A DNA stretch of 54,977 bases, from NCBI GenBank assembly GCA_026390015.1, contig JAPLGS010000073.1, positions 1 through 54,977 on the forward strand, in the 5' to 3' direction. This document shows positions 5,687-24,385 of the stretch, piece by piece. Origin of the DNA: Chloroflexota bacterium. Its GTDB lineage: Bacteria; Chloroflexota; Anaerolineae; Anaerolineales; Villigracilaceae. The notes beneath the pieces are model-generated. The model worked only from the letters and a program-made list of their open reading frames with translations. It was not told the origin of the DNA and did not search any database. Each line of letters opens with the position of its first letter. The first letter of the stretch is position 1. A program made the translations under genes and the position numbers.

Positions 5687-6967
5687 TCACGGCTGGCAAG
5701 TACTCTGAGTGGATAGCCATGTCACTGCGGTTTGCACGGCCGGGTCTTGGTCACTGCCAAACTTTGGCCAATCGGTACTGGCAGACACATCCGGTGTAAT
5801 CGGTCCTTCGTATGTGATCTTATTGCGGTCATAGGAAAACGCGCCGCTCACAAATATACTGCTGCCATCACTAAGTTCAGTATGGGTCACCAGAGTGGGC
5901 AAACCGAATGTTGGTTCACCAAAAGTACGCACATCCGCACGGCCGCTGAATGCCACCACAAGCAGTTCTGCTGCAGCCAGTGTTCCAGGCCCGATCAATA
6001 ACGCAACTGGAGTCACTTGTTTTGGTTTATAAATCGGCCTGCCAAAATCGCTCTCCCCAAGGCGGTTGCCAGCCCAGAGCACATCGCCGTTGTTATACGC
6101 CCAGCCTTCGCGCTTCCCATCCAGGTACACAAAACCGCCGAGTTTACCTTCGCCGAGGATAGGCCCGACCGCAGCAATATAAGACCAGATATCTCCACCG
6201 GGATTGCGTCGCAGATCGATGATCCAGCCGCAAGTCTCACTGGAATCCAACTTCTTAATCACCTCCTGCACATCGCCAGGGTAGGATTTGTGTCCGCCAG
6301 ATTCCAGAGGCAGCTCAACATATCCAACCCCGCTGGTATTAATGTCTATTCTTCGCCCGGTCGGCTGTAAAAGCGGATCCTGATACCCCATCATTTTTTT
6401 CTCTATCGTAATAGCCAATTCCTTTCCATCCCGCAGTACAACCAGATTTTCCTGCAGACTGGAATCTAATGGCTCTGTATTACAGGGCGGCCAGAGATTG
6501 TCCGGATCGAATGGCTTTGGAGCCTTGCCGTTGGATTCCTGGATAATATCCCCCACCTGCAAGCCGGCTTTATCAGCGGCGCCATTTGGCAGCACCCAGG
6601 TGACAATTTTATGATCCGGGTATAGTGTAAAGTAATCACCGCCATAATTTGGGGTCTTCAAGCTGGGCACCAGCATCCATGTATTCCCATCACGTAATTC
6701 GCGCAGTGCCTGACAAATCATCGGGTAGGTGTCGGTGCTTGTTTTTAGATCAGCAGTCAGATTGGCAGCCTCGGCTCGCAGCGCAGCCCAATCCACATTT
6801 TTTTCCAGCATGGCGTTGGTTTGCAACCACTGCAAGGCACCTTCTAGATATTGAGGCGGAGTCAAACCCGCCGGGGATGGGCTCGGCGAGGGGGTTGCAG
6901 TACTGCAGGCTGATAGCAGCACACTCAACATGAGAAGCAGATTCGAAAAAAAGCGAAAGGTTTTCAT
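5687..6967 (-). CDS. S41-peptidase-like lipoprotein lacking the catalytic Ser and Lys
   Basis: 426 aa from the ATG at 6967, chosen because GGAGG lies just upstream and a lipoprotein signal begins there (hydrophobic core, then LSVLLSAC). A Pro/Ser spacer follows, then a PDZ-like segment (VLPNGAADKAGLQVGDII) and an S41 protease fold (SETCGWIIDLRRNPGG is conserved). The catalytic stretch that reads SASE in active tail-specific proteases is AAAE here (Ser replaced by Ala, about residue 331), and the Lys 25 residues later is Leu (about residue 356, GEPTFGL). It is therefore probably a non-catalytic surface protein that binds peptides. It is transcribed with the WD40 kinase upstream (121-bp gap). 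Confidence 0.85.
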   Translation of the reverse strand: MKTFRFFSNLLLMLSVLLSACSTATPSPSPSPAGLTPPQYLEGALQWLQTNAMLEKNVDWAALRAEAANLTADLKTSTDTYPMICQALRELRDGNTWMLVPSLKTPNYGGDYFTLYPDHKIVTWVLPNGAADKAGLQVGDIIQESNGKAPKPFDPDNLWPPCNTEPLDSSLQENLVVLRDGKELAITIEKKMMGYQDPLLQPTGRRIDINTSGVGYVELPLESGGHKSYPGDVQEVIKKLDSSETCGWIIDLRRNPGGDIWSYIAAVGPILGEGKLGGFVYLDGKREGWAYNNGDVLWAGNRLGESDFGRPIYKPKQVTPVALLIGPGTLAAAELLVVAFSGRADVRTFGEPTFGLPTLVTHTELSDGSSIFVSGAFSYDRNKITYEGPITPDVSASTDWPKFGSDQDPAVQTAVTWLSTQSTCQP

Positions 6968-7088
6968 AACATCCTCCGTATCAATGGCTTTTCTTTGCAA
7001 GAGACAAGTTAATTGAGAGAGCACCAATTTTGATTACAAGCAAGTCTTATAGTTTCAATTGAAGTTCTATGTTGTAAGTCATAGGAAC

Positions 7089-10000
7089 TCACGGCCCTTT
7101 GGGACATACATCCATATGCAAATACTGGCGACATTCTTCTTTAGTCAATGTGCGTGTGACGCGGGACTTTGCCAGTGCGATCACATCTTGAATTTGCAGA
7201 TAGAAAATGGAGATACCCGACTTGCCACCCACAGCAAGTTGTTTTCCGTCAGGACTGAATGCAACACTAGTAGCACCATCGCTATCTACATAAAGGGTCA
7301 ACAAATTTGCGCCATTGGTCACATCCCATAGTCGAGTAGTGCCATCAAAGCCGACTGTGGCAAGCAGATTCCCTTCCGGGTTGAATTTGATTCCCCAAAT
7401 AGTTAATGCTTCATTTTTCACTGTCCACAGTTTTGTTCCCTTCAACGCATCCCAAATGCTAACGGTACCATCCATACCTCCTATAGCAAGTAGTTTTCCA
7501 TCAGGGCTGTAGTCAATGGATGATGGATCATAGAAATCCAAAGTGTCTAACTTTTCTCCTGTAGTGGCATCCCAAATAACCACTCCAGCTAACAATGTCC
7601 TATTACCAGTGGCAATTTGTTTTCCATCAGGGCTATAAGCCACTGCATAAGCGGGGGCAGCAACATCAAGCGTCAATGAATAGTCTCCAAGTGTGAGTAA
7701 TGACCTCCCGCTGACAATATCCCATACAATAACTGATCCATCATTGTTTGCGCTAGCAAGATGAGTTCCCGACGGCGAAAAAACAATTTTATTAATCGTA
7801 TCCTTAGCACCAGCCAGCGTGATATTCTCTTTACCGGTATTGGCATCCCAAATCGTAATGGTATTATCTTCGTTTATACTGGCAACAAGCTTTCCATCAG
7901 GATTGTATGCAGTGGCAATATTATTGATTTTGCCCACCTTCAATTGCTTTAATTCTTTGCCGGAAACAGCGTCCCATATTCTGGCAGTATTGTCTGTATA
8001 GTTAGTCAGAATGCGTGTCCCATCCGGGCTATAACTAACTGTCCGAAACCAAAGTGTGGCTTCAAATGGATTATGCGTAAAAGGGATAGAAAGGGATTCG
8101 CTGGGAGTTGTGAGGTCCCAAACCCGAACAGTACCATCATAACTGGATGATGCCAGACTCTTGCCGTCTGGGCTAAAAGAAATACCACTGATGGAATCTG
8201 TATGACCGGCTAACGTGTACATCACCTGTTTGGTTGTGGTATCCCACACCCTCACTTTTTGATCATAACCTCCGGTCGCCGCCAACCTTCCATCTTTACT
8301 AAAAGCAATATCCATAATGTAGCCTGGGTCACCAATTTTGCCACTGAACAATTTTTCTCCGGTTGAAGCGTTCCATATATTTATATTTATTGCTCCCCAA
8401 CCAACTGCAGTTATGCGTGTACCATCCGGACTAAAGGCAACAGCGTAAATGGATGTATTTTTTTCTACTATCTCAACGGGCAGGGTAAGCAGTTCCTGTC
8501 CCGAATTTGCATCCCAGACCCGAACGATATTGTCATTGCCGCCAGAAGCGACCCGTTTTCCATCCGGGCTAAATGCAACGCCAAAAACTTCCTTTCCGTG
8601 GCCGGAAAAAGTGAGCAATTCCTTACCGCTGAAGGCATCCCAAATTTTTGCTGTACCATCATTGCTCACTGTCACCAGGCGGGTTCCATCCGGACTGAAT
8701 GCAATATTATTAACCCCATTGGTGTGACCTCTAAGAGTGAATATTTCTTTTCCGCTGATTGCATCCCATACTTTTGCAGTATGGTTATTGCTGGCTGTAG
8801 AAACGCGCTTTCCATCCGGGCTGTAAACAATTTTCTTAACTATATCGGTGTGACCCAGATAAAATAGAAGATTGCCGGTATGAGCATCCCAAATTCTAGC
8901 AGTACTACTACTATCAGATGTAGCGATTTGGCTTCCATCCGGGCTATAGTTAACACTAAGGTAACCATAAATTGGTCCCAATTTATTTAGGTTAAAAATA
9001 ACCCGTGAAGAACGAATGGAACGATGCAGGGCATTTTCCGCTTCAATGGTATGAGTTGTGGATTCAGCCTGTAATGCCAGTAAAATACTGCGCTCAGGAT
9101 CTGCATCAAGATTGCTAATGGCGGCAGCCGCTAATTCTCTGGACACAGCAATTTTTTCATTTGCATTCGCAGTTGCCTCATTTTGTTGCGCTATAGTTGC
9201 GTTCTTGTTCGCTTGATTTCCAAAGAACGCTGCAACGCCTGCAAATACAACCGCAAGAACCAAAGCACTCGTTAGGAATACTGCCCGTTGTCTTAATCGT
9301 TTTGCAGATTGTGTTTGCAATTCGGCGCGGCTTGATTCTGTCTCTGCCAGTTTACGTGCTGACTCCAATTCACGCTGTTGTCTTGTAGCTTCTTCCATTT
9401 CTCGTTGATCTCGCGCAGTCATACTGGCTTTCAAATAATCAATTTCATGCTGTGTCAACGCAATTGCCGAGCTCACTGTCCAGCCTTCATATTGCGCTAA
9501 CTTGGTGCCGCTCAGTAAAAAGCTGGTATCACGATGCGCATCCATCCATTCGGATGCAGCTATTGAAAGTTGTCTCTGCATCCGCACCACGGTGCGACTT
9601 TCTTCCAACCAGCCGCGCAATCGCGGCCACTCGCGGATGATGGCTTCATGCGCCACTTCAACCGTCGGGCCGCGTGTGCCCGGATCACGGTCAAAGGAAA
9701 GCAGGCGCGCGTTTCCAAATGCATCCAGTGTCGCTTTGAATGTTTTGGAAACTTTCCTCAGATCCATATCACTAAATTTCAAATTTTCCAATTCATATAT
9801 CAAAACCCGGCGGCGGGTATCTTCCACACCTTCACCGAGCGTGACAAGACGCAGGAAGATCTGCTTTGCGATCAACTGACCTTCTTCATCCAAACTGCTA
9901 AATATTTCTTCGGCCCTTCGGCCGAGTGCGCCCATCACGCCGCCGATCTCAAGATAGGCAGATCTCGTCAGCGTATTCCCTGCGCGCTTTTCGTAGAGTT

Positions 10001-11912
10001 CAGTCAATGCATATTGGAGCAAAGGCAGTGTGCCGGGCTGGTCGCCGAGGTCATGCAATATCGCAGCGACAAGTCCGCTCTCAAGATGCAAACCAACCCG
10101 TTCAGCGGGCGAAGCGATCGTGCTTTCCAATTCATCCGGTGTGAGCGGCAGGACGATCTCCATGCGCTGATGGATCAGCTCGCCGAAGTCAACATATCCA
10201 AGCGGACGGTCGATAAAATCTGCGCGCATGGTCAAAATGACTCGAATGCGGCTGCTCTCATCCAGAATCGCGTTCACAAGCAACCCGAGAAAACGCATAC
10301 GTTCGGTTTCATCCTGCAAGAGCGTGAACACTTCTTCAAATTGATCAATGACCAGCACCAGTTCAATGGATGGATCGTTTGGCAGGGAACGCCGCACAGC
10401 GCGGATCAGTCCACGGCTGTCTTTTTGGAATTGTTCGATCAGCGACGCGGGCGGGTTGACCGCGACCCGCAGCAGCGCGGCTTCGAGTTCTTCCAGTGGA
10501 TGAGCGCCGGGCATCATCTCGATGATGAACCAGTTCTCCGAGCCGGGCAATGCTCCGCGGCGGAGGGCAGGTATCAAGCCCGCTTTGACCACCGATGATT
10601 TTCCGCTTCCACTCGGCCCGACAATGGTCAGGAAACGCGACAGTTCTCCAGTATCCCCAAGCTTGATCAGCAATTGCTGGATCAACGATTCGCGTCCGTT
10701 GAAATCCTGCGCGTCCCCTTCACCGAACGCGCGTAATCCCTTGTAAGGGTTATCCATTTCAGTGAGAGGCCGCGACGAAACTGGCTTGCTTTTGAACTCA
10801 TGAAGATTAGCCCCCAATGCGCTTCGCAGATCATTCAACATCAATTCGACATTTTCATATCTTTGCAGCGGATCTTTCGCGGTCGCATGTTCGATCACAT
10901 CATCGAGCGATTTGGGCAAACCGATACGATACTCAGCAAGCAAAGGCAGGGGCGTGTTGAGATGTTGACTCATCACATCAAAAGGCGTATTCCCGCGGAA
11001 GGGAACTTTGCCTGTCAGAAGTTCATAAAGCATCACGCCCAGTGCGTAAATATCAGTTTGTGGGCGGACGAATTCCGAGCGGATCTGTTCCGGTGAAATA
11101 TAGTCCGGTGAACCGATGACCATGTCCGCCTGGGTCTCGGATGATGGACTGCTCAAATTCTTTGCGATACCGAAGTCAGCCAGATAGGCGTTGTTGTCTT
11201 CATCGAGTAAAACGTTGGCAGGTTTCAGGTCACGATGAACAACACCCGCGCGATGCGATGCGCTCAATGCGGAACCGATCTGCTCCATCATGCGTAAAAT
11301 AGTTTCAGAGGATAGTACCGTTCCACTGCGTAAAAGAGTTTGCACACTTCCACCGCGTAAAAGGCGCATGATCAGATACGCCACACTGGGCTCGCGCCAA
11401 TAATCATAAAGCGGAACAATGTGCGGATGTTCCAACCGCGCCACCAGCTGTGCCTCGGCTTCAAAGCGGCGGATGAAATCGGGATGATTGGCATACATCG
11501 GCAGGATGATCTTGATCGCCACTTCACGTTCAACCAAAGGCTGCACCGCGCGGTAAACTGCTCCCATCCCGCCGCTGCCAAGCCTCTCTCCCAAAGCATA
11601 TCCACGAATGGCGCGGCCGCTCAGATCCTCACTGCCGATCTCTTCGGGTGCTGGCATGGGAGTGATGTGTGGTTCTTCAAAGACACGTTCAATGCGCGCC
11701 AACTTCACAAAGGCAGACCGTTCTTCAAGTGGAATGTTCAATGCCATCGCAATGCGTTCAGCGATCTGTACCGATGGGCGCAGATCATCTGCTTCGATCT
11801 TACGCAAGGTGATCGGGGCACAGCCCACGCGCCGGGCCAATTCATCCTGGGTCAAACCCAGCTCACGGCGGCGGTTTTTTGCGATCAATCCAAAAGAATA
11901 TTCGTTGCTCAT
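7089..11912 (-). CDS. Giant XRE / Ser-Thr kinase / nSTAND NTPase / TM / WD40 signalling protein
   Basis: 1607 aa from the ATG at 11912 (GAGGG upstream; another ATG lies 12 bases earlier). Domains in order: XRE helix-turn-helix (about 6-60); Ser/Thr kinase (about 105-370) with GSGGMG loop, AIK lysine near 134, HRDLKPAN near 226 and DFG; an NPYKGLRAF linker typical of nSTAND1; NTPase with P-loop GPSGSGKSS near 432 and Walker B LVLVIDQFEE near 520; a membrane segment near 877-898; then 14 WD40 repeats (SPDG...WD) to about 1560, enough for two seven-bladed propellers; and a tail IALAKSRVTRTLTKEEC. The kinase and NTPase look intact. Such proteins belong to the STAND signalling/conflict class. A DNA-binding domain on a membrane-anchored protein is unusual. 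The trigger and output are unknown. Confidence 0.93.
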   Translation of the reverse strand: MSNEYSFGLIAKNRRRELGLTQDELARRVGCAPITLRKIEADDLRPSVQIAERIAMALNIPLEERSAFVKLARIERVFEEPHITPMPAPEEIGSEDLSGRAIRGYALGERLGSGGMGAVYRAVQPLVEREVAIKIILPMYANHPDFIRRFEAEAQLVARLEHPHIVPLYDYWREPSVAYLIMRLLRGGSVQTLLRSGTVLSSETILRMMEQIGSALSASHRAGVVHRDLKPANVLLDEDNNAYLADFGIAKNLSSPSSETQADMVIGSPDYISPEQIRSEFVRPQTDIYALGVMLYELLTGKVPFRGNTPFDVMSQHLNTPLPLLAEYRIGLPKSLDDVIEHATAKDPLQRYENVELMLNDLRSALGANLHEFKSKPVSSRPLTEMDNPYKGLRAFGEGDAQDFNGRESLIQQLLIKLGDTGELSRFLTIVGPSGSGKSSVVKAGLIPALRRGALPGSENWFIIEMMPGAHPLEELEAALLRVAVNPPASLIEQFQKDSRGLIRAVRRSLPNDPSIELVLVIDQFEEVFTLLQDETERMRFLGLLVNAILDESSRIRVILTMRADFIDRPLGYVDFGELIHQRMEIVLPLTPDELESTIASPAERVGLHLESGLVAAILHDLGDQPGTLPLLQYALTELYEKRAGNTLTRSAYLEIGGVMGALGRRAEEIFSSLDEEGQLIAKQIFLRLVTLGEGVEDTRRRVLIYELENLKFSDMDLRKVSKTFKATLDAFGNARLLSFDRDPGTRGPTVEVAHEAIIREWPRLRGWLEESRTVVRMQRQLSIAASEWMDAHRDTSFLLSGTKLAQYEGWTVSSAIALTQHEIDYLKASMTARDQREMEEATRQQRELESARKLAETESSRAELQTQSAKRLRQRAVFLTSALVLAVVFAGVAAFFGNQANKNATIAQQNEATANANEKIAVSRELAAAAISNLDADPERSILLALQAESTTHTIEAENALHRSIRSSRVIFNLNKLGPIYGYLSVNYSPDGSQIATSDSSSTARIWDAHTGNLLFYLGHTDIVKKIVYSPDGKRVSTASNNHTAKVWDAISGKEIFTLRGHTNGVNNIAFSPDGTRLVTVSNDGTAKIWDAFSGKELLTFSGHGKEVFGVAFSPDGKRVASGGNDNIVRVWDANSGQELLTLPVEIVEKNTSIYAVAFSPDGTRITAVGWGAININIWNASTGEKLFSGKIGDPGYIMDIAFSKDGRLAATGGYDQKVRVWDTTTKQVMYTLAGHTDSISGISFSPDGKSLASSSYDGTVRVWDLTTPSESLSIPFTHNPFEATLWFRTVSYSPDGTRILTNYTDNTARIWDAVSGKELKQLKVGKINNIATAYNPDGKLVASINEDNTITIWDANTGKENITLAGAKDTINKIVFSPSGTHLASANNDGSVIVWDIVSGRSLLTLGDYSLTLDVAAPAYAVAYSPDGKQIATGNRTLLAGVVIWDATTGEKLDTLDFYDPSSIDYSPDGKLLAIGGMDGTVSIWDALKGTKLWTVKNEALTIWGIKFNPEGNLLATVGFDGTTRLWDVTNGANLLTLYVDSDGATSVAFSPDGKQLAVGGKSGISIFYLQIQDVIALAKSRVTRTLTKEECRQYLHMDVCPKGP

Positions 11913-11958
11913 TTTCCCTCGCATTGTTGAGAATTGTGGGTGAACTTATCTTGTTACA

Positions 11959-11987
11959 ACTATACAACTTTAAGAATTGAAAATCAA
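11959..11987 (-). promoter_or_regulatory. Promoter of the WD40 kinase gene
   Basis: On the minus strand TTGATT (11982-11987) and TATAGT (11959-11964) are separated by exactly 17 bases, close to the sigma-70 consensus. The start codon is 47 bases downstream of the -10. Confidence 0.6.
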
Positions 11988-12004
11988 TGGTATTTGTTCA
12001 TTTG

Positions 12005-12044
12005 TATCGGTTTTATATCGGTTTCTGCAGGGTCATAGCGGTAT
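12005..12044. promoter_or_regulatory. Repeated TATCGGTTT boxes between divergent promoters (possible operator)
   Basis: TATCGGTTT occurs at 12005-12013 and 12016-12024, 11 bp apart (one helical turn), with a related TAGCGGTAT at 12036-12044. They lie between the two opposing promoters. A protein bound on one face of the helix could control both; the XRE domain of the adjacent gene is a natural candidate, but that is inference. Confidence 0.4.
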
Positions 12045-12045
12045 A

Positions 12046-12074
12046 TTGGATAACAATAAATTTCCAGATATAAT
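12046..12074 (+). promoter_or_regulatory. Promoter of the SulP transporter operon
   Basis: TTGGAT (12046-12051) and a perfect TATAAT (12069-12074) are spaced by 17 bases. The likely ATG at 12116 is 41 bases downstream. Confidence 0.6.
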
Positions 12075-12115
12075 CAATGAAATTATTCCAAATTCAAATA
12101 TGAGTGGGTGTCACT

Positions 12116-14353
12116 ATGGATCAGACTGTGAAAGGGAATATTCTTCACTTGGTACGCGATGAATTCCAGTCGAAGCGGTTATTACCCGCTCTCATGATGG
12201 GGACAATTTCCGGCCTGGTGGAAGTGATCTTTGCCCTTGCGATCGCGAGCCTGGTATTCAATGGTGACCTGGCCGTCTTCCTTCCATATGGCTTTGGTAT
12301 TTCACTGTTCAGTTCCGTAATCTTGCTGATCGGCACATCTCTGACAAGTTCAGTTTCAGGCGTCTTCAGCAGCGTTGATGATATCCCAACGGTTGTGATG
12401 GCAGTCATTGCAGCCTCACTGGCTGGCACACTGGCCGCTGCGGGCAGTACAGAAAAACTTGCCACCATCCTTGTAACTATTGCGCTCACCACCATTTTGA
12501 CAGGTGTTCTTTTCCTGACAGTAGGTTACTTCGGCCTGGGTAAACTGGTGCGCTTTATTCCCTATCCAGTCATGGGCGGATTTCTAGCCGGGACCGGCTG
12601 GATGTTGGTGCAAGGTTCTTTCGGGGTTATGACAGATTATGAACTCATCCCCTCAAACCTTCCAGCGCTCCTCCAGTCACAACAACTGATCCTATGGATA
12701 CCCGGTGTTTTATTCGCTGTTGCCTTGTTCTTTGGCATGCAACGCTTCGACCACTTTCTGACCATGCCCATAATTTTTCTGGGAGTTACCGGCTTGTTTT
12801 ATCTTACTTTCCTGCTGACTGGCACATCCATTCAGGATGCAACATCACGCGGAATCTTGCTTGGAAAAGTGGGCGGCGACGCGATCTGGCAGCCGTTTGC
12901 GCTTGGCAGTAGGTTGCTCACCGCGAATTGGTCGGCCATCCTGGGGCAAGGCGGCAATATCGCGATCGTACTCATCTTGAGCATGATCGGCTTCCTGTTG
13001 AACGCCTCCGCCCTTGAATTAACCAATCGCCAGGAGATTCACCTCAACCAGGAATTAAAATCGGTTGGCATTGTCAACATAGTATCTGGCTTGCTCGGCG
13101 GCATGGTGGGCTACCACCTGTTGGGCGATACTGCTTTGAATTATCGTGTTGGCGCAAAAGGCAAATTACCCGGCATCATAACCGGCATCGTTTGCGCAGG
13201 AACATTTCTGTTGGGTGCGCCTTTGCTCGTCTATCTCCCGCGTGCGCTTTTGGGCGGATTTTTATTTTTCCTGGGACTCGACTTTCTGGTGGAATGGGTT
13301 ATAGAGGGTTGGAAGAAACTTTCCCGCAGTGATTATTTCGTCACGCTTCTGATTCTGATCACGATCGCAACCACGAACTTTTTGATCGGGATCGGAGTGG
13401 GGTTGGTGGCGGCGATCGTTCTGTTTGTGGTGAATTACAGCAAGATCAATGTGGTACACCATGCGCTTTCAGGAGCAGAGATCAAGAGCAATGTCGAACG
13501 TTGCGCCTATCATCAGCGTGTATTGAAGGACAAGTTGGGACAACATATTTATGTTCTTGAATTACAGGGCTTTCTCTTTTTTGGCTCAGCCAATGCTCTG
13601 TTGGATCAAGTTCGTGAACGGCTCGCGGATGCGGCTCAACCCAGGCTCCGCTATCTCGTATTTGACTTTCAGCGCGTGAGTGGATTCGACTCTTCGGCTG
13701 TCATGAGTTTCGTCAAATGCAGACAGATCGCAGAAACCCAGAATATCACTTTGGTGCTGACTCATCTATCAGCCGAAATGCAGAAACGCTTTGAGATGGA
13801 TGATCTGTCTGAAAACCGGGCAGGGATTCGCGTCTTCCGGGATCTCGATCACGGCCTCGAATGGTGTGAGGAGCAGCTGCTTGATATTGAACAGGTCACA
13901 GCTTTGCATACGCCGGTCACGTTGAGCGCTCAACTGGCAGACAGCGGTTTTGAAAAGAGTAATACCAAACGCTTATTAAATTATTTGGAAAGAGTCACCT
14001 TCAAGGCAGGTGAAAACTTGATCCATCAGGGAGCTGAAGCAGACCAAATGTATTTTATCGAAATGGGCGCGGCGTCTGTGTATCTCGAATTGGGGAATCA
14101 ACAACGGATGCGGCTGCAAACGCTTGGGTTGGGAACGGCCATCGGAGAACCGGGTTTATATATGGGGACAACTTCCTCGTCCTCAGTGATCGCCGATATG
14201 CCGGTCACTGCCTATCGCCTGACGCGCACCGCGCTGGCAGAGATGAAACAGAAGGAACCTGAACTGGCGGCAACCTTCCATGAATTTGCAGCCCGATTAC
14301 TTTCGGAGAGATTGACTTCGATCACCCGCACACTCGAAGCAGTTCTAAAGTGA
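12116..14353 (+). CDS. SulP-family transporter with STAS and cyclic-nucleotide-binding-like domains
   Basis: 745 aa from the ATG at 12116; an in-frame GTG at 12104 is an alternative. About residues 15-430 are a polytopic SulP anion-transporter domain, about 455-570 a STAS domain (VLELQGFLFFGSANALL ... LVFDFQRVSGFDSSA), and about 610-740 a Crp-like cNMP-binding fold. In the last domain the phosphate cassette keeps the Glu (IGEPGLYMG) but the Arg that normally binds the cyclic phosphate is replaced by Ser (SSSSVIA), so cNMP binding is doubtful. The gene ends four bases before the start of the kinase/cyclase gene, so the two are co-expressed. Substrate unknown: sulfate, bicarbonate or another anion. 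Confidence 0.92.
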   Translation: MDQTVKGNILHLVRDEFQSKRLLPALMMGTISGLVEVIFALAIASLVFNGDLAVFLPYGFGISLFSSVILLIGTSLTSSVSGVFSSVDDIPTVVMAVIAASLAGTLAAAGSTEKLATILVTIALTTILTGVLFLTVGYFGLGKLVRFIPYPVMGGFLAGTGWMLVQGSFGVMTDYELIPSNLPALLQSQQLILWIPGVLFAVALFFGMQRFDHFLTMPIIFLGVTGLFYLTFLLTGTSIQDATSRGILLGKVGGDAIWQPFALGSRLLTANWSAILGQGGNIAIVLILSMIGFLLNASALELTNRQEIHLNQELKSVGIVNIVSGLLGGMVGYHLLGDTALNYRVGAKGKLPGIITGIVCAGTFLLGAPLLVYLPRALLGGFLFFLGLDFLVEWVIEGWKKLSRSDYFVTLLILITIATTNFLIGIGVGLVAAIVLFVVNYSKINVVHHALSGAEIKSNVERCAYHQRVLKDKLGQHIYVLELQGFLFFGSANALLDQVRERLADAAQPRLRYLVFDFQRVSGFDSSAVMSFVKCRQIAETQNITLVLTHLSAEMQKRFEMDDLSENRAGIRVFRDLDHGLEWCEEQLLDIEQVTALHTPVTLSAQLADSGFEKSNTKRLLNYLERVTFKAGENLIHQGAEADQMYFIEMGAASVYLELGNQQRMRLQTLGLGTAIGEPGLYMGTTSSSSVIADMPVTAYRLTRTALAEMKQKEPELAATFHEFAARLLSERLTSITRTLEAVLK

Positions 14354-14357
14354 GCTT

Positions 14358-17300
14358 ATGGAAAAATTCATCATTGCCAATCGGTTTGAGATCAACGACC
14401 TTGAAAAAGATCTGCTCGGGCGCGGCGGTATGGGGGTTGTCTATCGCGCCACTGATAACCAGAGCGGTGAAACAGTTGCGGTTAAGACACTAAATTCCGA
14501 GGCGCTCTCGCATGAGCCCAACATCCTCGAACGCTTTCAACGTGAAGGTGATGCGCTGCGCCAGCTCAACCATCCCAATATCGTAAAGTTCATCACCGCC
14601 ATTGAATCGCATGGACAGCATTATTTGGTGATGGAATTTGTGGATGGAGGCAGTTTGCAGAGTCTGCTTGCAAAGCATGGGCAACTCTCCAGCCAGCGCT
14701 CAGTCGAGATCGGCCTTGATCTGGCAGATGCCCTGACGCGCGCTCATCATTTGGGAATCGTTTATCGTGACCTCAAGCCTGCGAACGTGCTGCTTGCGCA
14801 GGATGGCACACCGCGCCTGACTGATTTTGGAATCGCTCAACTGGCTGACAGTTCGCGCCTGACGCAAACGGGTGTTCTGGTTGGCACCGTGAACTATCTC
14901 AGCCCTGAAGCGCTCAGCGGGGAAGTACTGGATTTCCGAACGGACATCTGGGCGTTTGGGGTGCTGATGTTTGAAATGCTAACCGGACGCCTGCCATTCA
15001 CCGGTGATAATCTCACTGCCCGCATCACTGCGACTCTCACTCAGCCGGTGCCTGACCTGACTCGATATGATCTGGATATACCCAAACCGCTGGCGGACTT
15101 GATCTACCACATGTTGGAGAAAGACCGCCAGCAGCGCATCCCCAGCATGCGGCAGGTGGGAGCCGAGTTGGAGTCATTGTTGAACGGCTGGCAGGGGAAT
15201 CCGATTTCAAGCGAAAGTCGTTTTGAATCTCCCAGCCTATTCACGCAAAACGCAAATCATGAACTTCCCACCGGCACAGTCACGTTTCTTTTTACCGATA
15301 TTGAAGGCAGCACAAAACTTGCACAAAAATTTCCCGATGCCATCCGTGCCCTGATCGCCCGTCATAATGAGATATTGACTCAGGTATTTGAATCGCAGCA
15401 TGGATACATCTTCCAGATCATCGGAGATTCTTTTGCTGCCGCATTTCATAACGCCAATGATGCAGTGAATGCCGCATTGGAAGCGCAGCGTAAACTTCAT
15501 AATGAAGCATGGGCTCCCGCGCCCATCAAAGTGCGCATGGGGATTCATACCGGCGCGGCGCAATTGCAAATTGAATCTAAAGACACTCCATATTCAGGCT
15601 ATGCCACGCTGGCATTGACCCAGCGTATTTCGTCCGCGGGACATGGCGGACAGATTCTGATCTCAAGCGCAACTGAGAATTTATCGCGCGGACAATTACC
15701 AAAAGATGCGGCTTTGCGTGATATGGGTGAAAAGAATTTGAAAGATATTTTTCTGTCGGAGCGCATTTATCAATTGAATGTTCCAGACCTGCCGTCTGAA
15801 TTTCCCGCGTTGAAAACGTACGAAAAGACCAGACATAATCTGCCTTTGCAACTGACAACCTTTATTGGCCGCGAAAAAGAAGTGGAGCAGATCAAGAAAC
15901 GGCTGGAGAAAAATCATCTGGTGACGCTGACCGGTTCGGGCGGCATCGGCAAGACGCGGCTTTCAATTCAAGTTGCTTCGGAATTATTACCGGAATATCC
16001 AATTGGCGTCTGGTTGGTGGAACTCGCGCCATTGACCAACCCCGCGCTTGTGCCGCAATCTGTGTGCGCGGCATTGGGAGTCACACCGGAAGGAAACACA
16101 TCCGCGCTGGATGCCTTGATCAACTACATGCGCACGAAGAAAATATTATTGGTGGTGGATAACTGCGAACATCTGATCGATGCCTGCGCGCAACTCTGTG
16201 ATTCGCTCTTGCATGCCTGCGCGGATTTGCGGATCATCGCCAGCAGCCGCGAAGCCTTGGGCATCGAAGGTGAAAATGCGTATCGTGTACCTTCTCTCTC
16301 TCTGCCAAATGTCAAAAGCGGACTGCGCGTCATTGAAGGATCGGAGGCGGTCAAGTTGTTCATGGAACGTGCGACAACTATGTCGCCAGAATTTGGGATA
16401 ACCGAAGCCAACGCGCCCGCCATCGCACAGATCTGCCTGCGGCTAGATGGAATTGCATTAGCAATTGAGCTTGCCGCGTCACGTGTCAAGATGTTGAAAG
16501 TGGAACAGATCGCAACGAGATTGGATGATGCGTTCCGTTTGTTGACCGGCGGTAGCCGCACCGCCTTGCCACGCCAGCAGACATTGCGTGCGTTGATCGA
16601 TTGGAGTTACAACTTACTTCCTGATGAAGAGAAAACTTTCTTGCGAAGGCTCTCAGTCTTTATGGGAGGATGGACTCTCGAAGCGGCGGAAGCAATTTGC
16701 GGTAATGCCGATGCGCTTGATCTGTTGACTCATCTCGTTGACAAGTCTCTTGTATCCGTGGATTACGAACATGGCGATGAAACCCGCTATTATCTGCTTG
16801 AGACCGTGCGTCAGTATGCACGCGAGAAATTAGTTGAAAGTGGGGAGAGTGAATTCGCGCGTGAACGACACTTGGAATATTACATGCTATTGGCAGAGGC
16901 TAATGAAGCCACGCGAAAAACACCTGAGCAAATGCTGGCGTATCAACAAATGAAAATGGAACTCGATAACTTTCGTCTTGCCCTAGGCTGGTCTTTAGGA
17001 GAAGATACAAACAATCATTTTTGTGAAAAGGGATTGCGCTTGGCAAATTCCCTTGATTGGGAGGAGATATCTACTGAAGAAGGATTAAATTGGTTGCAAA
17101 AGGGATTATCACTAATTTCAAATGATGATCCTATGTTTGACCTTACTCGTGCCAGAACCATGACGTATCTAGGGCGTTTGTTCGTAAACATGAGTGAGAG
17201 CCAGTATGGGATCGACTTATTGGAGAAAAGCCTTGCTATATATCAATCCAATAATCCACAGGATAAAAGTGATTGGGTGAATACGCTCTTGAACTTTGCA

Positions 17301-18140
17301 TATGCTTATATCGACTCTGATTTAGCCAAGGTACGCGCCTACGCCCAGCAGGGCGTGGCAATGGCCCGCTCAATGGGGAAAGTGGGCCATTGGGATCTTG
17401 GTTGGGCGCTCTATTGGGATGGGTGCGCGGCATACAGACAAACAGAATACGAGACTGCCAAATCCCAAACACAGGAAGGACTTGCCATTTTCCGACAATT
17501 AAGGGACAACATAAGCGTTGCTGGTTTGTTGCAATTACTCGGATGGATTGAAATGGATCAAAAAAATTATGATGCTGCGCGGGCGCATCTGTCTCAAGCT
17601 CAAAGCATCTATTCTTCTCTTGGCTTGAAATCGGGCATCATGCTTGTTCTTGGTGATATTGCATCTTTAGACCGCTCAGCAGGACGATTTGACGCGGCTC
17701 GAATATGCATAGAAGAAGTGGTGGCTTATGAAAGAGACAGGGGATTGAAAAAGGAAATGATCATCCCTCTTTGGCGTTTAGGAGATGTTTTAGTTATGCT
17801 CGGTGAATTCGAGCAAGCGACCAAAGCTCTGCGGGAAAGTTTACAGCTCGTGCAATACTCTGGAGATCCACGCTTTAAAGGATACGGTTTATTTTCTTTA
17901 GCCAAAGTTCTCAAACATCAGGGAGACTTTAATAATGCAGCCCGTTTATTGGGAGCGATTGAAGTTGAATCGAGTAAGGATCTCTGGCAACTTTATGCAC
18001 CCCGCATGGCAGACTACAATCAAAATTTTGAAGCAATCAAAACTGCCTTGGGAGAATCCGCTTTTGCTGCTGCCTATGCAGAAGGTAAAGCAATGACGCT
18101 CGAACAAGCTGTTTCGTATGCTTTGGAACTTACCATATGA
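14358..18140 (+). CDS. Ser/Thr kinase / class III cyclase-like / NB-ARC ATPase / TPR signalling protein
   Basis: 1260 aa. Kinase at about 10-275: GRGGMG loop, AVK Lys43, YRDLKPAN with Asp138 and DFG. Class III nucleotidyl cyclase-like domain at about 305-470: metal-binding Asp314 (FTDIEGST) and Asp357 (GDSF) are present, but the region that should carry the transition-state Asn and Arg reads YSGYATLALTQR and has no Asn, so cyclase activity is doubtful. NB-ARC/AfsR-type ATPase from about 500: P-loop GSGGIGKT at 526-533 and LLVVDNCEHL. Winged-helix segment near 740-800, then TPR-like helices to the end. It resembles large Chloroflexi regulators but lacks an obvious DNA-binding domain. Coupled to the transporter upstream (four-base gap). 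Confidence 0.93.
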   Translation: MEKFIIANRFEINDLEKDLLGRGGMGVVYRATDNQSGETVAVKTLNSEALSHEPNILERFQREGDALRQLNHPNIVKFITAIESHGQHYLVMEFVDGGSLQSLLAKHGQLSSQRSVEIGLDLADALTRAHHLGIVYRDLKPANVLLAQDGTPRLTDFGIAQLADSSRLTQTGVLVGTVNYLSPEALSGEVLDFRTDIWAFGVLMFEMLTGRLPFTGDNLTARITATLTQPVPDLTRYDLDIPKPLADLIYHMLEKDRQQRIPSMRQVGAELESLLNGWQGNPISSESRFESPSLFTQNANHELPTGTVTFLFTDIEGSTKLAQKFPDAIRALIARHNEILTQVFESQHGYIFQIIGDSFAAAFHNANDAVNAALEAQRKLHNEAWAPAPIKVRMGIHTGAAQLQIESKDTPYSGYATLALTQRISSAGHGGQILISSATENLSRGQLPKDAALRDMGEKNLKDIFLSERIYQLNVPDLPSEFPALKTYEKTRHNLPLQLTTFIGREKEVEQIKKRLEKNHLVTLTGSGGIGKTRLSIQVASELLPEYPIGVWLVELAPLTNPALVPQSVCAALGVTPEGNTSALDALINYMRTKKILLVVDNCEHLIDACAQLCDSLLHACADLRIIASSREALGIEGENAYRVPSLSLPNVKSGLRVIEGSEAVKLFMERATTMSPEFGITEANAPAIAQICLRLDGIALAIELAASRVKMLKVEQIATRLDDAFRLLTGGSRTALPRQQTLRALIDWSYNLLPDEEKTFLRRLSVFMGGWTLEAAEAICGNADALDLLTHLVDKSLVSVDYEHGDETRYYLLETVRQYAREKLVESGESEFARERHLEYYMLLAEANEATRKTPEQMLAYQQMKMELDNFRLALGWSLGEDTNNHFCEKGLRLANSLDWEEISTEEGLNWLQKGLSLISNDDPMFDLTRARTMTYLGRLFVNMSESQYGIDLLEKSLAIYQSNNPQDKSDWVNTLLNFAYAYIDSDLAKVRAYAQQGVAMARSMGKVGHWDLGWALYWDGCAAYRQTEYETAKSQTQEGLAIFRQLRDNISVAGLLQLLGWIEMDQKNYDAARAHLSQAQSIYSSLGLKSGIMLVLGDIASLDRSAGRFDAARICIEEVVAYERDRGLKKEMIIPLWRLGDVLVMLGEFEQATKALRESLQLVQYSGDPRFKGYGLFSLAKVLKHQGDFNNAARLLGAIEVESSKDLWQLYAPRMADYNQNFEAIKTALGESAFAAAYAEGKAMTLEQAVSYALELTI

Positions 18141-20292: not shown

Positions 20293-20472
20293 ATGAAAAT
20301 CAAAGAAAATCTTTCGACCGAACTAAAAATCGAAGAGTTTGCCAAAGAGTTGGGGCTGCAGCTGCGTCTCCTCTTTTTGGAGAAGAAATCCAAAGAACAG
20401 GATTCTCTCGATGAGGTTGTAAAACCTGTGACCGCGCCCCAAATATCTAAAAATTTCAAGGTGAAAGAATGA
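20293..20472 (+). CDS. 59-aa charged helical protein coupled to serine recombinase
   Basis: The frame starts MKIKENLSTELKIEEF and ends SKNFKVKE; a GAGGAA ribosome binding site sits five bases before the ATG. Its TGA overlaps the recombinase ATG (ATGA at 20469-20472), so translation is coupled. The protein is Lys/Glu/Leu-rich, probably two helices with a flexible C-terminus, with no membrane segment. I recognise no family. Small proteins next to integrases are often excisionases or other accessory DNA-binding factors, but nothing here proves that. Confidence 0.7.
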   Translation: MKIKENLSTELKIEEFAKELGLQLRLLFLEKKSKEQDSLDEVVKPVTAPQISKNFKVKE

Positions 20473-22277
20473 GCGATATCCATGAATTTTCAAACCCCCA
20501 GAATATTACCCCCGACTTGGTCATGCAATATCTGGCCAAAATCGCAAAAGACAATCCTGAGCCGGAAACAAACCGCGCTGTGATCTATGTTCGAAAATCA
20601 CGTGTGATCACAGGCGTCTCATATTATTCGCCGGAGCTCCAGGAAAAAGATTGCCGCGATCTCGCCACTAGAAATAATTTCGAAGTTCAAAAAGTGGTCA
20701 CTGATCTGGACCGCTCAGGAAAAAATTCTGACAGACCCGGTCTGCAGGAAATTTTACGGATGTCGAGAAATCGTGAAATTGATTATGTGCTGGTCCAGTA
20801 CATTGACCGGAATTATCGCAACGGTCTCAGTATGCTTAAGTTTTATGAAAAGTTAAGAGAGTACGGAGTGTCCATCTTATCTGTCCATGAAAATATTAAT
20901 ACCCGTGATTTTAATGGACGGTTTATGCTGTTCCTGTATTCCATCATGGCAGAATGGCCAATTCACTTGACATCGGAACGCGCGCGAGCAACCGCCGAAA
21001 ACTTAATGGAAAAAGGCCGTCACCATGGCGCTTACAGGCTGGGCTACTGCAACGGGTTATGCTCCAATTGCAAAGATCCGAATGGAGAGGGCTATTGTCC
21101 ATTGTTTGGCGGTCATGACCGTATAGAAAGCGAACGTGGGCGTGTCCAGGTTCCACATCCCATTGAAAAGCATGCGGTTGTATTAATTGCCAATTTATAT
21201 AATTCCAGGTGGAGTTCCAGGGAAATCACGAGATATTTAAATGACAATCTTTTTTCGGTTGACGGGAAGGATATTAAATTTAGAACAAAGGGGATTGCCG
21301 GTTACAAAGAACCTGGAAAATTCTCTTCCGAAAGTGTTTTAGACATCGTTCGAAGTCCATTCCATGTTGGCGTAGTGGCACATTACCCCACTGCCAAATT
21401 AAATTTACAGGACGATATCGAGAATCCCAAAAGATACAAGATAACCGTCAAAAATCGCCGCATCCCCGAAAAAACCTATACTGGCAATCATCAAGCGCTA
21501 TATCCCTACGAACTTTGGGAACAAAACCAATCCATTCGAACTTCGAAGAAAAAGGTACCCACCAATTCCAGCAAGTCAAGCCGTACTTATCTGCTGCGAG
21601 GCATTGCTCAATGCTGGGAGTGCCTGCCATACACAAAGTCAGACAGGACGGTTTCATTGCGCGGTTCTATTAATGGTTCTGGGAACGCGATTTACCGCTG
21701 TGCCAGTTTGCATGGCCGCGAAAAAGACAGGGAGTCTAAATTACATCTGACACAGTTCAATCTGATTGCCCAATCTGATGAGCACGCGCCAAATCTGCGG
21801 GCGCTTCATCCCAAGCCAGTTCTTCCCGCAAACCTTTTGGAAAAACAAGTGGAAGACCTGATCTTAAACATGAGAATCCCAGAAGAATGGTTCGAGATAA
21901 TACTGGCGTACGTGGCTTCTGATGAAGGATTAAGCGAATACAAAAGAAAAAAATACAACTTAAGCACAGAGTTTAAAAAATTCAAGGATCTATATTCTCA
22001 TGGCGATATAGATACAGCCGAGTACACCGCAAAGAAAATGCAAATATCAACAGAGCTGGCCAACTTACAACCCAGTTCAAATCCTGACCTGCATCATATT
22101 ATCCCAGTCATAAAAGATTTTCCTGCGCTATGGCAAATGTTGTCACAGGAAGGAAAGCATGTTTTATTACGCGTCATATTTGAGCGCATTTACTTTGATG
22201 GAAATGGCCGGATACGTGAAATTAGAGCACATGCCCCCTTCGATGCCATACTCAATTTACATACAGACTTTGAATAA
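20469..22277 (+). CDS. Large serine recombinase with Cys-rich insertion
   Basis: 602 aa. The resolvase catalytic domain runs from about 36 to 180: AVIYVRKS with the nucleophile Ser44, then DRPGLQEIL and YIDRNYRN carrying conserved Arg residues. Right after it comes a Cys-rich insertion GYCNGLCSNC / GYCPLFGG (about 193-213) shared with the second recombinase. A recombinase domain and a C-terminal region follow, with a degenerate zinc ribbon (CWEC ... YRCASLHG) and a helical segment. These enzymes cut and rejoin DNA at att sites to integrate or excise elements. The gene is translationally coupled to the 59-aa gene upstream. Its stop converges with the XRE regulator 12 bases away. Confidence 0.92.
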   Translation: MSDIHEFSNPQNITPDLVMQYLAKIAKDNPEPETNRAVIYVRKSRVITGVSYYSPELQEKDCRDLATRNNFEVQKVVTDLDRSGKNSDRPGLQEILRMSRNREIDYVLVQYIDRNYRNGLSMLKFYEKLREYGVSILSVHENINTRDFNGRFMLFLYSIMAEWPIHLTSERARATAENLMEKGRHHGAYRLGYCNGLCSNCKDPNGEGYCPLFGGHDRIESERGRVQVPHPIEKHAVVLIANLYNSRWSSREITRYLNDNLFSVDGKDIKFRTKGIAGYKEPGKFSSESVLDIVRSPFHVGVVAHYPTAKLNLQDDIENPKRYKITVKNRRIPEKTYTGNHQALYPYELWEQNQSIRTSKKKVPTNSSKSSRTYLLRGIAQCWECLPYTKSDRTVSLRGSINGSGNAIYRCASLHGREKDRESKLHLTQFNLIAQSDEHAPNLRALHPKPVLPANLLEKQVEDLILNMRIPEEWFEIILAYVASDEGLSEYKRKKYNLSTEFKKFKDLYSHGDIDTAEYTAKKMQISTELANLQPSSNPDLHHIIPVIKDFPALWQMLSQEGKHVLLRVIFERIYFDGNGRIREIRAHAPFDAILNLHTDFE

Positions 22278-22783: not shown

Positions 22784-24385
22784 ATGCATGAATCAACAGG
22801 TACTGAAATGTTGAGGGCGGTAGGATATCGACGGGTTTCCATGCGTGAACAGGTGGATGGCTTTAGCCTGGACGCACAGGAGAACAGCATAACAAAATAC
22901 GCAAGGGAACAGGGTTGGAAATTGATCACCATTTATCAGGACGCAGGCATCTCAGCCAAGAAGGGAAGTCATCGCCCGGCATTTGAAAATCTACTGGCGG
23001 ATGCGAAGTTGAAAAAATTTGATGTGGTTGTCGTTGATAAGGTGGACCGCTTCTATCGTCACCTGGGCGGACTGCTAACCACCCTCGACCAATTAAATGG
23101 CTGCGACGTCTCCTTTGTCTCAGTGCAGGAGCGGATTGATTTTACAAGTCCCTGGGGAAAGTTAATGTTGTCCGTACTTGGCACGCTGGCAGAAATATAT
23201 CTTGATAATCTTCGGCAGGAAGTTCGTAAGGGAAAAAAGCAGCGCGCCCGACAAGGACTGTGGCTCGGAGGGACGCCATTTGGCTATTGCAATGGACTTT
23301 GCTCCAAGTGCACGGATCCAAACGGACAGGGGTATTGCCCGGATTTCGGTCAGCCCGATAAAGGGGATGGAAAAGTACTTATTCCTCACCCAGTGGAGAG
23401 CAAAGTGGTTTTCCAGGCTTTTGAATGGTACACATCTGAAGGATATAGTTTCCGTTCAATTGCTGATAATTTAAATAAATTGGAAATTCAATTCCCAAAT
23501 AACCAAAGTGTGCCTGCCCGTCAAAAGGGTTTGCCCGGAAGATCCAAGCCCCATTCCTTCAATCGCGATGTAGTTCGAGATTTATTAGGACGAATGGCAT
23601 ATGCCGGGAAATTAACTTATCAGGGCGTGGATAAGGATGGAAAACACCAAAAACGAAAAAAACCGTTGGAGATTTTCGATGCCACACATCAGGCAATCAT
23701 AAACATGGAGATGTTTGAGAAAGCAAAAGAAATACGCGAAACAAGATATAAGAATTGTTTCAGCCGCCATGGCCGTCCTGTGCGAGTTTATATACTTACC
23801 GGTATTCTTCGCTGCGGGTATTGCGGGGGAAGTATGAGAGGTGTTTCCAATGCCACCAAACGTTATTATGTAGATGGAAACCAAAGAGATAAATCCTGTC
23901 ATTGCACCCAAAAAACAATTTACGCTGAAGAAATCGAAAAGCAATTTACTGACTGGATTGGATCCATATTTGAAAGTACAAGTCTTGAAGAAGATATTCA
24001 AAATGAAACTGTGGTAAAAATTCAGGAAGGTCGACTCAATCGCTCGAAGGATTTATTTTTACTTGGTGAAATTGACTATCATTCCTTCACTGCCGAAAGA
24101 AAACGTTCCGATGATATAAACGAAGCCTTGCGCGCTACGGAAACGCATAGTAGAATTCAATTCATACAAGAAAGTAAATCCCAGTTATTTGAATGGGATC
24201 ATCTTTCACAACTTAAACGCAAAAGGCTGCTGCAATCACTAGTTGCAACAGCCTACGTGCGAGAAAGCGCATTCGTGGCGTGTCAGCCGACTTTTGCGTT
24301 TCAACCTATAGTGGTCCCGCAGTCACAAGGACTGCGGGCGTGTAACAGCGGGGAGGGCGGGATTCGAACCCGCGACCGGTTTTAA
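22784..24385 (+). CDS. Large serine recombinase running into tRNA-Ser
   Basis: 533 aa. Catalytic domain at the N-terminus (GYRRVSMREQ, nucleophile Ser19; IYQDAGISAKKGSHRPAF; DKVDRFYRH). The same Cys-rich insertion as in the first recombinase follows (GYCNGLCSKC / GYCPDFGQP, about 167-187), then the recombinase domain and a zinc ribbon (LRCGYCGGSMRG ... CHC). AGGAG precedes the ATG. The natural C-terminus of such proteins (AFVACQPTFAFQPI) is followed by ~30 odd residues ending GEGGIRTRDRF, which are translated from the opposite strand of the tRNA-Ser 3' end. So the reading frame crosses the island/tRNA junction. The end of the functional protein is uncertain. Confidence 0.92.
   Translation: MHESTGTEMLRAVGYRRVSMREQVDGFSLDAQENSITKYAREQGWKLITIYQDAGISAKKGSHRPAFENLLADAKLKKFDVVVVDKVDRFYRHLGGLLTTLDQLNGCDVSFVSVQERIDFTSPWGKLMLSVLGTLAEIYLDNLRQEVRKGKKQRARQGLWLGGTPFGYCNGLCSKCTDPNGQGYCPDFGQPDKGDGKVLIPHPVESKVVFQAFEWYTSEGYSFRSIADNLNKLEIQFPNNQSVPARQKGLPGRSKPHSFNRDVVRDLLGRMAYAGKLTYQGVDKDGKHQKRKKPLEIFDATHQAIINMEMFEKAKEIRETRYKNCFSRHGRPVRVYILTGILRCGYCGGSMRGVSNATKRYYVDGNQRDKSCHCTQKTIYAEEIEKQFTDWIGSIFESTSLEEDIQNETVVKIQEGRLNRSKDLFLLGEIDYHSFTAERKRSDDINEALRATETHSRIQFIQESKSQLFEWDHLSQLKRKRLLQSLVATAYVRESAFVACQPTFAFQPIVVPQSQGLRACNSGEGGIRTRDRF
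24316..24338. repeat. 9-bp perfect inverted repeat beside tRNA-Ser, possible att core
   Basis: CCCGCAGTC (24316-24324), loop ACAAG, GACTGCGGG (24330-24338). It lies 10 bp from the 3' end of tRNA-Ser(GCU) and inside the end of the recombinase frame. No T run follows on either strand, so it is unlikely to be a terminator. A recombinase binding or crossover site is possible; I did not find a matching copy at the left side of the island. Confidence 0.35.

Follow-up and report, generated by a model that had tools for sequence, protein, structure and literature searches.

A SulP transporter gene paired with a STAND-type kinase–cyclase gene in one clade of Chloroflexota: site states, distribution and possible coupling

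Introduction

SLC26/SulP transporters that carry a STAS domain followed by a cyclic-nucleotide-monophosphate (cNMP)-binding domain (cNBD) or an RmlC-like tail have seldom been described. For yeast Vsb1, the cNBD-like tail is essential for transport, and a role in oligomerisation or dimerisation was suggested by the authors, who name the cyanobacterial nitrate transporter LtnT as the only other report (PMC13160679). Here we analyse a 54,977-nt stretch of a Chloroflexota genome (the window; contig C62 of G000, a 4.3 Mb genome in 177 contigs), in which a SulP transporter gene of similar three-part architecture is followed by the gene for a kinase–cyclase–NB-ARC–TPR protein (KC). LtnT is said to be latent and released by response regulators. 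The likeness to Vsb1 and LtnT is one of description, their sequences not having been compared; a difference is that no STAND kinase partner is described for either in the available part of that source (PMC13160679).

Other described systems share parts of KC or of the pair. TOMM kinase/cyclase fusions (TIGR03903) likewise join a kinase and a cyclase on one chain, and their profile matched KC residues 36-543; at 161.6 bits against a cut-off of 705.75, however, KC falls outside that family. Pycsar (PycC with PycTIR or PycTM) also has a class III cyclase adjoining a cNBD protein, but the cNBD of the window lacks the Arg for cyclic phosphate and the family matches are weak. Diversifying STAND/NTPase conflict systems have NTPases with variable parts and cyclase or kinase domains, many of them inactive (PMC7159879, PMC10907252). 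Described there are VMAP-vWA-MoxR systems and, further, lectin sensors that retroelements diversify, whereas in the window whole TPR or WD40 sensors differ or were exchanged.

Results and discussion

A conserved gene pair

Both genes lie on the plus strand and are separated by the 4 nt at 14354-14357. Open reading frames and Pfam domains agree with an initial annotation of this DNA, which had placed a transporter gene four bases from a kinase/cyclase/NB-ARC/TPR gene. The same 4-nt spacing was found in a sister species, G008 (SulP 96% identical), and in L129 (CAIMZS010000143.1, uncultured Anaerolineae; SulP 75% identical), which has other genes upstream of SulP yet the same order and spacing of the pair. 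The G008 locus on contig C245 and L128 (CAIWRB010000245.1, uncultured Chloroflexi, a metagenome assembly) are treated as one locus. As the spacing recurs in G008/L128 and L129, the adjacency is no chance event. Gene order, domains and residue states can be read from the DNA, and the pair, real but narrow, is conserved in three species of one clade. We tentatively read it as an operon of a transporter and a STAND-type sensor kinase that would control it, a reading to which we give somewhat less than an even chance. The parts of the two genes are as follows.

12104 (GTG) or 12116 (ATG) to 14353, + strand: SulP-STAS-cNBD transporter (open reading frame, Pfam)
about 12191-13348, + strand: SulP membrane part
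about 13544-13813, + strand: STAS domain of SulP
about 13994-14251, + strand: cNBD of SulP
14144-14188, + strand: phosphate-binding cassette of the cNBD, GEPGLYMGTTSSSSV; Glu682 kept, Arg site occupied by Ser691 (14174-14176)
14358-18140, + strand: KC, 1260 aa (open reading frame, Pfam)
14406-15143, + strand: Ser/Thr kinase domain of KC, with Gly loop
15270-15731, + strand: class III cyclase domain of KC; D314, D357 and R423 kept, Q353 at the Lys site, A419 (15612-15614) at the Asn site
15813-16997, + strand: NB-ARC (STAND NTPase) region of KC, with the P-loop LTGSGGIGKTRL at 15927-15962
16848-18137, + strand: TPR sensor region of KC

The transporter matched Sulfate_transp (1.7e-32), STAS (4e-11) and cNMP_binding (PF00027; 7.3e-15). 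With its membrane domain and STAS domain it qualifies as SLC26/SulP, while missing the cut-off of the TIGR00815 sulP subfamily (128 against 380 bits). Its AlphaFold2 model (pLDDT 89.8) found AtSULTR4;1 as the nearest solved fold in Foldseek (E 4e-19, TM 0.67 by target). Elsewhere in its own genome, the one match at E 0.001 is confined to the cNBD part. KC matched Pkinase (1.1e-57), Guanylate_cyc (1.3e-13), TPR_12 (2.6e-14) and NB-ARC (PF00931; 4.3e-6, 26.6 bits against a cut-off of 23.5); the last match and the P-loop make it a STAND NTPase. The kinase motifs VAVK, YRDLKPAN and DFG are intact.

Distribution was assessed in neighbourhood sets of 18, 10, 3 and 80 loci, which overlap and often have short flanks. 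KC adjoined SulP in 1 of 18 relatives' regions (G008) and at 2 of 80 genome_contigs loci (L128, L129); it was not seen beside SulP in 10 further regions of the phylum, nor in 3 more. A pair widespread across phyla is ruled out for the neighbourhoods examined, where, besides the window, KC adjoined SulP only in G008 and L129. SulP genes themselves, searched without their neighbours, were present at E 1e-40 in 12 of 400 phylum genomes and at 1e-100 in 19 of 57 genus genomes, the window's own included in both counts. None of 29 loci fetched with the KC kinase held a kinase–cyclase–NB-ARC fusion; one of them, L248, combines a kinase and TPR with a weakly matched cyclase (2.7e-6). Outside the clade, the most similar kinase (L232, 67%) has no SulP in the 8.8 kb available. 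In L131 (61% SulP identity), otherwise the most suitable intermediate, an N run starting within STAS hides the cNBD and the next gene. We met no published description of the pair in the literature searched, which is no proof of absence.

Confinement to one clade fits another account, in which the transporter shares its promoter with one member of an expanding STAND family and the two are not directly coupled. The cyclase–NB-ARC part gave 5 matches at E 1e-20 in its own genome and 8 in G008, and no KC was seen at 78 of the 80 genome_contigs SulP loci, some with little flank. Such an account is unlikely in our judgement: order and spacing are kept down to 75% SulP identity in a different upstream context, and KC is most strongly conserved at its kinase end. 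A promoter-like site lies upstream of the pair.

12047-12074, + strand: promoter-like site; its part CCAGATATAAT (12064-12074) is also found ahead of SulP in L128 and L129

Promoter-like sites were not in excess in the scan (8 against 7.6 expected).

The cyclase domain and its Asn-less relatives

In KC we take D314 and D357 to be the metal Asps, Gln353 to stand at the Lys site, Ala419 at the Asn site and Arg423 to be the transition-state Arg. Both Asps and the Arg are thus present. The initial annotation had noted a cyclase without Asn and a binding domain without Arg, and Ala419 and Ser691 bear this out in alignments; the change at the Lys site was absent from it.

The same annotation took the Asn loss as a sign of degeneracy, which the relatives of the domain do not support. 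We compared 87 distinct related domains, found by similarity to the window's and mostly from its genus, order and class. Both metal Asps are kept in all 87. The Asn is missing from 41, of which 39 keep the Arg, and the Lys is missing from 33 of these 41 against 2 of the 46 Asn-bearing domains. The cyclase tree is modestly supported (14 of 84 inner branches starred) and has 6 or more changes of Asn state; on it the window's domain lies near Asn-less relatives (e.g. L072, L051, L123) that have no SulP neighbour in the stretches available. A further subgroup (L313, L293, L334, L337, L339, L298) carries His in place of the Asn and Asp in place of the Lys.

The AlphaFold2 model of the domain (pLDDT 94.4) has a class III fold with the two metal Asps. 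Its best VIA-align row was Ma1120 (4wp9; Z 24.5, rmsd 1.6 over 161 residues), with several further rows, Rv1900c included, close enough (within 1) to count as tied; Foldseek and phmmer placed 1fx4 first and Ma1120 second. Ma1120, a class III cyclase of Mycobacterium avium and among the nearest solved relatives, likewise has Ala at the Asn site with the Arg kept, and is active; when Asn was introduced, its adenylyl cyclase activity fell drastically and its guanylyl cyclase activity disappeared (PMC4215837). Rv1900c has His at this site, and Asn is not required (PMC4886424). Because the metal Asps are universal in the set and Ma1120 is active with Ala, we do not read an Asn-less cyclase as dead, and annotators should be wary of doing so for this subfamily. 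Asn loss thus characterises the subfamily and is compatible with catalysis; the KC cyclase itself may be active. Ma1120 differs in that Lys101 and Asp157 choose the base (PMC4215837), where KC has Gln353 and no Asp, and in that the KC cyclase is fused to a kinase, NB-ARC and TPR. The altered Lys and Asp places suggest a different base preference. The domain belongs to a widespread subfamily whose base-selecting site differs, and it may make a nucleotide or only bind one.

These observations raise the possibility of small-molecule gating, with an active cyclase of other base preference whose product (or a nucleoside or other ligand) would occupy the Arg-less cNBD pocket. In its favour, the universal Asps, the retained Arg and the linked loss of Lys describe a coherent altered site, not decay, and Ma1120 works with Ala at the Asn place.

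The cNMP-binding tail

The window's cNBD matched, in addition to PF00027, chains of PKA, PKG and CRP. Its cassette keeps Gly681-Glu682 and has Ser691 in place of the Arg for cyclic phosphate; G008 also has Ser, and L129 has Cys. Of 102 distinct SulP rows, 100 had a residue in the Arg column (R 65, H 12, A 10, S 8, Y 3, I 1, C 1), and the cassette Glu is kept in 90 of the 100. Clustering at 90% identity gave 91 clusters, 59 with the Arg and 32 without, and 25 of these 32 keep the Glu. Among the Arg-less clusters are many from cyanobacteria, with His, and a group whose titles are mostly those of deltaproteobacteria/Syntrophus kin, with Ser. A FastTree tree, some of whose branches are long, shows at least 5 changes of Arg state, their direction not inferred; the window's clade (Ser, Ser, Cys) accounts for one, and the sister of that clade, L132, has Arg. 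Because the Arg is missing from 32 of 91 clusters and the Glu is still kept in most of them, the SulP tail can be said to persist without Arg. Nor need the tail sense nucleotides, since the comparable domain of Vsb1 is essential and may serve dimerisation. Arg-less SulP tails are common, a point to be heeded in annotation.

Trypanosome PKA binds nucleosides, and in it loss of the Arg is accompanied by an acid where PKA has Ala202 (PMC10959531). In SulP, such an acid occurs in 11 of the 32 Arg-less clusters against 1 of the 59 Arg-bearing ones, which would favour gating by a small molecule. The Fisher P of 2.5e-5 ignores kinship: 10 of the 11 cases form one cyanobacterial group, so the independent events are few. 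The eleventh is L129, in which Glu stands at the Ala202 place and Cys occupies the Arg position. The window itself shows no trypanosome-type nucleoside site, since Gly684 stands at the Ala202 place, 7 before the Arg place; this speaks against small-molecule gating. Also against it, the cUMP receptor PycTIR still uses the Arg (G86, E87 and R97 in PsPycTIR; PMC11224242).

Cassettes lacking the Arg and bearing an acid were seen in L129, L143, L146, L138, L144, L165, L179, L192, L193 and L156. Cyanobacterial L144, L156 and L179 carry SulP-STAS-cNBD genes or gene pieces in groups of two or three, consecutive or near one another, with His or Tyr at the Arg place.

Joint occurrence of the two site changes

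The initial annotation regarded the two site changes as parallel, pointing to a different ligand or a protein–protein switch. The Arg is, however, missing from 32 of 91 clusters after at least 5 state changes, and KC was seen beside 2 of these 32 (window, L129), 23 of which have at least 3 kb downstream. A wider cyclase profile run over the SulP neighbourhoods found L166, the Polyangium loci and L141, which an earlier profile had missed. Site states were then read by eye from the alignment, counting Polyangium once and leaving out L168, which is cut short. At seven SulP loci a class III cyclase lay within 10 kb and could be read: both residues are missing in two (window, L141), the cyclase Asn but not the cNBD Arg in two (L166, L152), and neither in three (L154, L111, L204). 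The association is not significant, at a sample size of little power (one-sided Fisher P 0.29).

Individual loci point both ways. L141, with Ala and Arg in its cyclase and Ser in its cNBD, favours the initial reading, its genes lying 844 nt apart on opposite strands; no cyclase was seen in the available stretches of its nearest SulP kin (L140, L151, L163, L171, L199). In L166, another Chloroflexota genome, a kinase-CHASE2-cyclase gene (6297-9779) lies about 175 nt upstream of a SulP-STAS-cNBD gene; its cyclase has Ile at the Asn place and His at the Arg place, and the cNBD keeps its Arg. Among cyclases farther off, L111 and L204 have Asn and Arg, and L152 has His, each with Arg in the cNBD. 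Pairs with only one site changed had been named as telling against the initial reading; L166 and L152 are such pairs, but their cyclases are no orthologues of that of KC. In Polyangium L154, L157 and L160, a gene with two cyclase-like domains stands upstream of SulP and the cNBD Arg is kept. By eye, these two domains may complement each other, the metal Asps being in the first and Asn...Arg in the second.

We therefore set aside parallel loss as the signature of a shared change of ligand, both losses being common separately and the seven neighbours showing no significant association. On the sequences compared, the joint change is weakened as an argument, not disproved.

Proximity of cyclases to SulP is a further point for small-molecule gating. 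A class III cyclase lies within 1 kb of SulP in 4 of 91 clusters, where the density at 1-10 kb predicts 0.65 (P 0.004). One of the four is the query, without which three remain (P 0.03), and the 1-kb limit was set after looking. Overall, we regard such gating as doubtful, if a serious contender.

Possible coupling of kinase and transporter

The operon reading that we prefer would work as follows. By analogy with STAND proteins, the TPR region of KC would sense some signal and its NB-ARC NTPase would act as the switch. The Ser/Thr kinase would be the output, perhaps together with the cyclase, whose metal site is intact. Kinase output would set transporter activity through the STAS/cNBD tail. 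Phosphorylation or direct contact would be the likeliest coupling, more so than a canonical cNMP bound through the usual Arg; a Ser of the STAS motif FDSSAV (13685-13702) or the Ser/Thr-rich cassette could be phosphorylated. The kinase-CHASE2-cyclase gene upstream of SulP in L166 speaks for this reading. So do the 4-nt spacing kept in all three species, the intact kinase motifs, the constancy of everything but the sensor between the KC–SulP pairs of the window and G008, the need for the tail in Vsb1, and the persistence of SulP tails that lack the Arg.

Several points weigh against it. A nucleotide signal would be simpler if the cyclase were active, and within the window's own clade the Glu and Cys of L129 fit a nucleoside-type site. 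The pair was seen in 2 of 91 SulP clusters, both of one clade; 66 of the 91 offer at least 3 kb of downstream sequence. In L129, SulP is split into two frames and the contig ends 310 bases into KC, leaving only the first 103 residues of its kinase. Kinases lie less than 1 kb from SulP in 4 cases against 0.81 expected, three of them in the window's clade; that clade aside, 1 (L166) remains against 0.81 expected, no clear enrichment. If the operon reading is right, an NLR-like sensor is wired to a transporter, an output type that we did not meet in the portions of the literature surveyed.

Sensor regions of the STAND genes

A second STAND gene diverges from the pair on its left. The following features bear on its sensor and on that of KC.

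7089-11924, - strand: left STAND gene with an HTH-like N-terminus (by eye, from the sequence), kinase, nSTAND1 NTPase and WD40 sensor
9067-16847, unstranded: collinear block, 91.4% DNA identity to G008:C245, ending within the sensor domains of both STAND genes
7101-9304, unstranded: WD40 part, 88.8% DNA identity to G008:C221, another locus of the sister species

On one side the collinear match ends within the left gene's WD40 region, on the other where the KC TPR begins; past these points, all that the window and G008:C245 still share is a brief weak match at the left gene's far end. In 40-residue bins of KC up to residue 800, 18 of 20 are 85-100% identical to G008 and the other two 55 and 72%, whereas from residue 841 the bins fall to 17-32%, with 55% in the last; by alignment, NB-ARC is 90% and TPR 27% identical. 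In the left gene, the first 900 residues are 97% identical and the WD40 bins mostly 27-48%. Transporter, kinase, cyclase and NB-ARC are thus constant between the window and G008 while the sensors differ; the two close species may serve as a natural experiment on exchanged sensors under an unchanged output.

In control pairs from the same two genomes the sensors are kept (NB-ARC/TPR identity 97%/98% for C51c/C356 and 99%/85% for C129/C250). The kinase–NTPase part of C221 is only 66% identical to the window, and the left gene, compared with L355 and L128, looks mosaic, its NTPase resembling G008:C245 and its WD40 part G008:C221. KC2 of G008 and a gene on G000:C51 share 91% DNA identity over NB-ARC and TPR; KC2 has a kinase and the C51 gene none. 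No donor for the window's TPR above 27% identity was found at E 1e-20 in the 57 genus genomes besides the window's own gene. Misassembly is unlikely as the cause of the sensor differences, the WD40 one included: in all three nSTAND genes the reading frame runs uninterrupted through the junction, and identity between the two G008 copies there does not exceed 30 bases. Some doubt comes from that 30-base exact match, which in the WD40 case lies in the junction, from L128 being a metagenome assembly and from the 177 contigs of the window's genome. In this genus, the cores, N-terminal outputs and C-terminal sensors of STAND genes seem to have been recombined, as far as these comparisons indicate. 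In L128 (12255-22247), SulP is followed by three NB-ARC-TPR genes with 4-nt overlaps, two with kinases and two with cyclases.

A bolder version would make the locus a bacterial NLR-like system with a transporter as output. Two outward-pointing STAND genes would hold kinase, NTPase and the intervening SulP gene nearly constant while exchanging their TPR and WD40 sensors with other loci. The kinase would gate SulP by phosphorylating the Ser/Thr-rich TTSSSS cassette that took the place of the Arg, so that a covalent phosphate substitutes for the cyclic nucleotide. Taken as a whole, this version seems quite improbable to us.

STAND genes on both sides with differing sensors also recall defence loci, and in a Pycsar-like or NLR-like one the transporter would be the membrane effector. 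PADLOC matched the cyclase to PycC (1.2e-6) and the cNBD to PycTIR (5.4e-12), and an Asn-bearing control cyclase, L076 (n=1), matched none. The PycC match, however, spans 71 residues, the PycTIR match may be common among cNBDs, and many PADLOC kinase matches look generic. Of the EaPycC residues F100, R142 and Q144 (counted from the metal Asps D102 and D146; the mapping covers the EaPycC clade), the window's F312, Q353 and I355 match one of three. The cNBD keeps Gly-Glu and has Ser691 where Pycsar receptors have Arg. Pycsar membership is ruled out by this Arg, the two unmatched EaPycC residues and the weak profile matches; the absence of PycC entries from the best 50 VIA-align rows excludes nothing. 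A defence role of either kind is the least probable of the readings considered.

Two serine recombinase genes lie at 20469-22277 and 22784-24385, the first about 2.3 kb downstream of KC.

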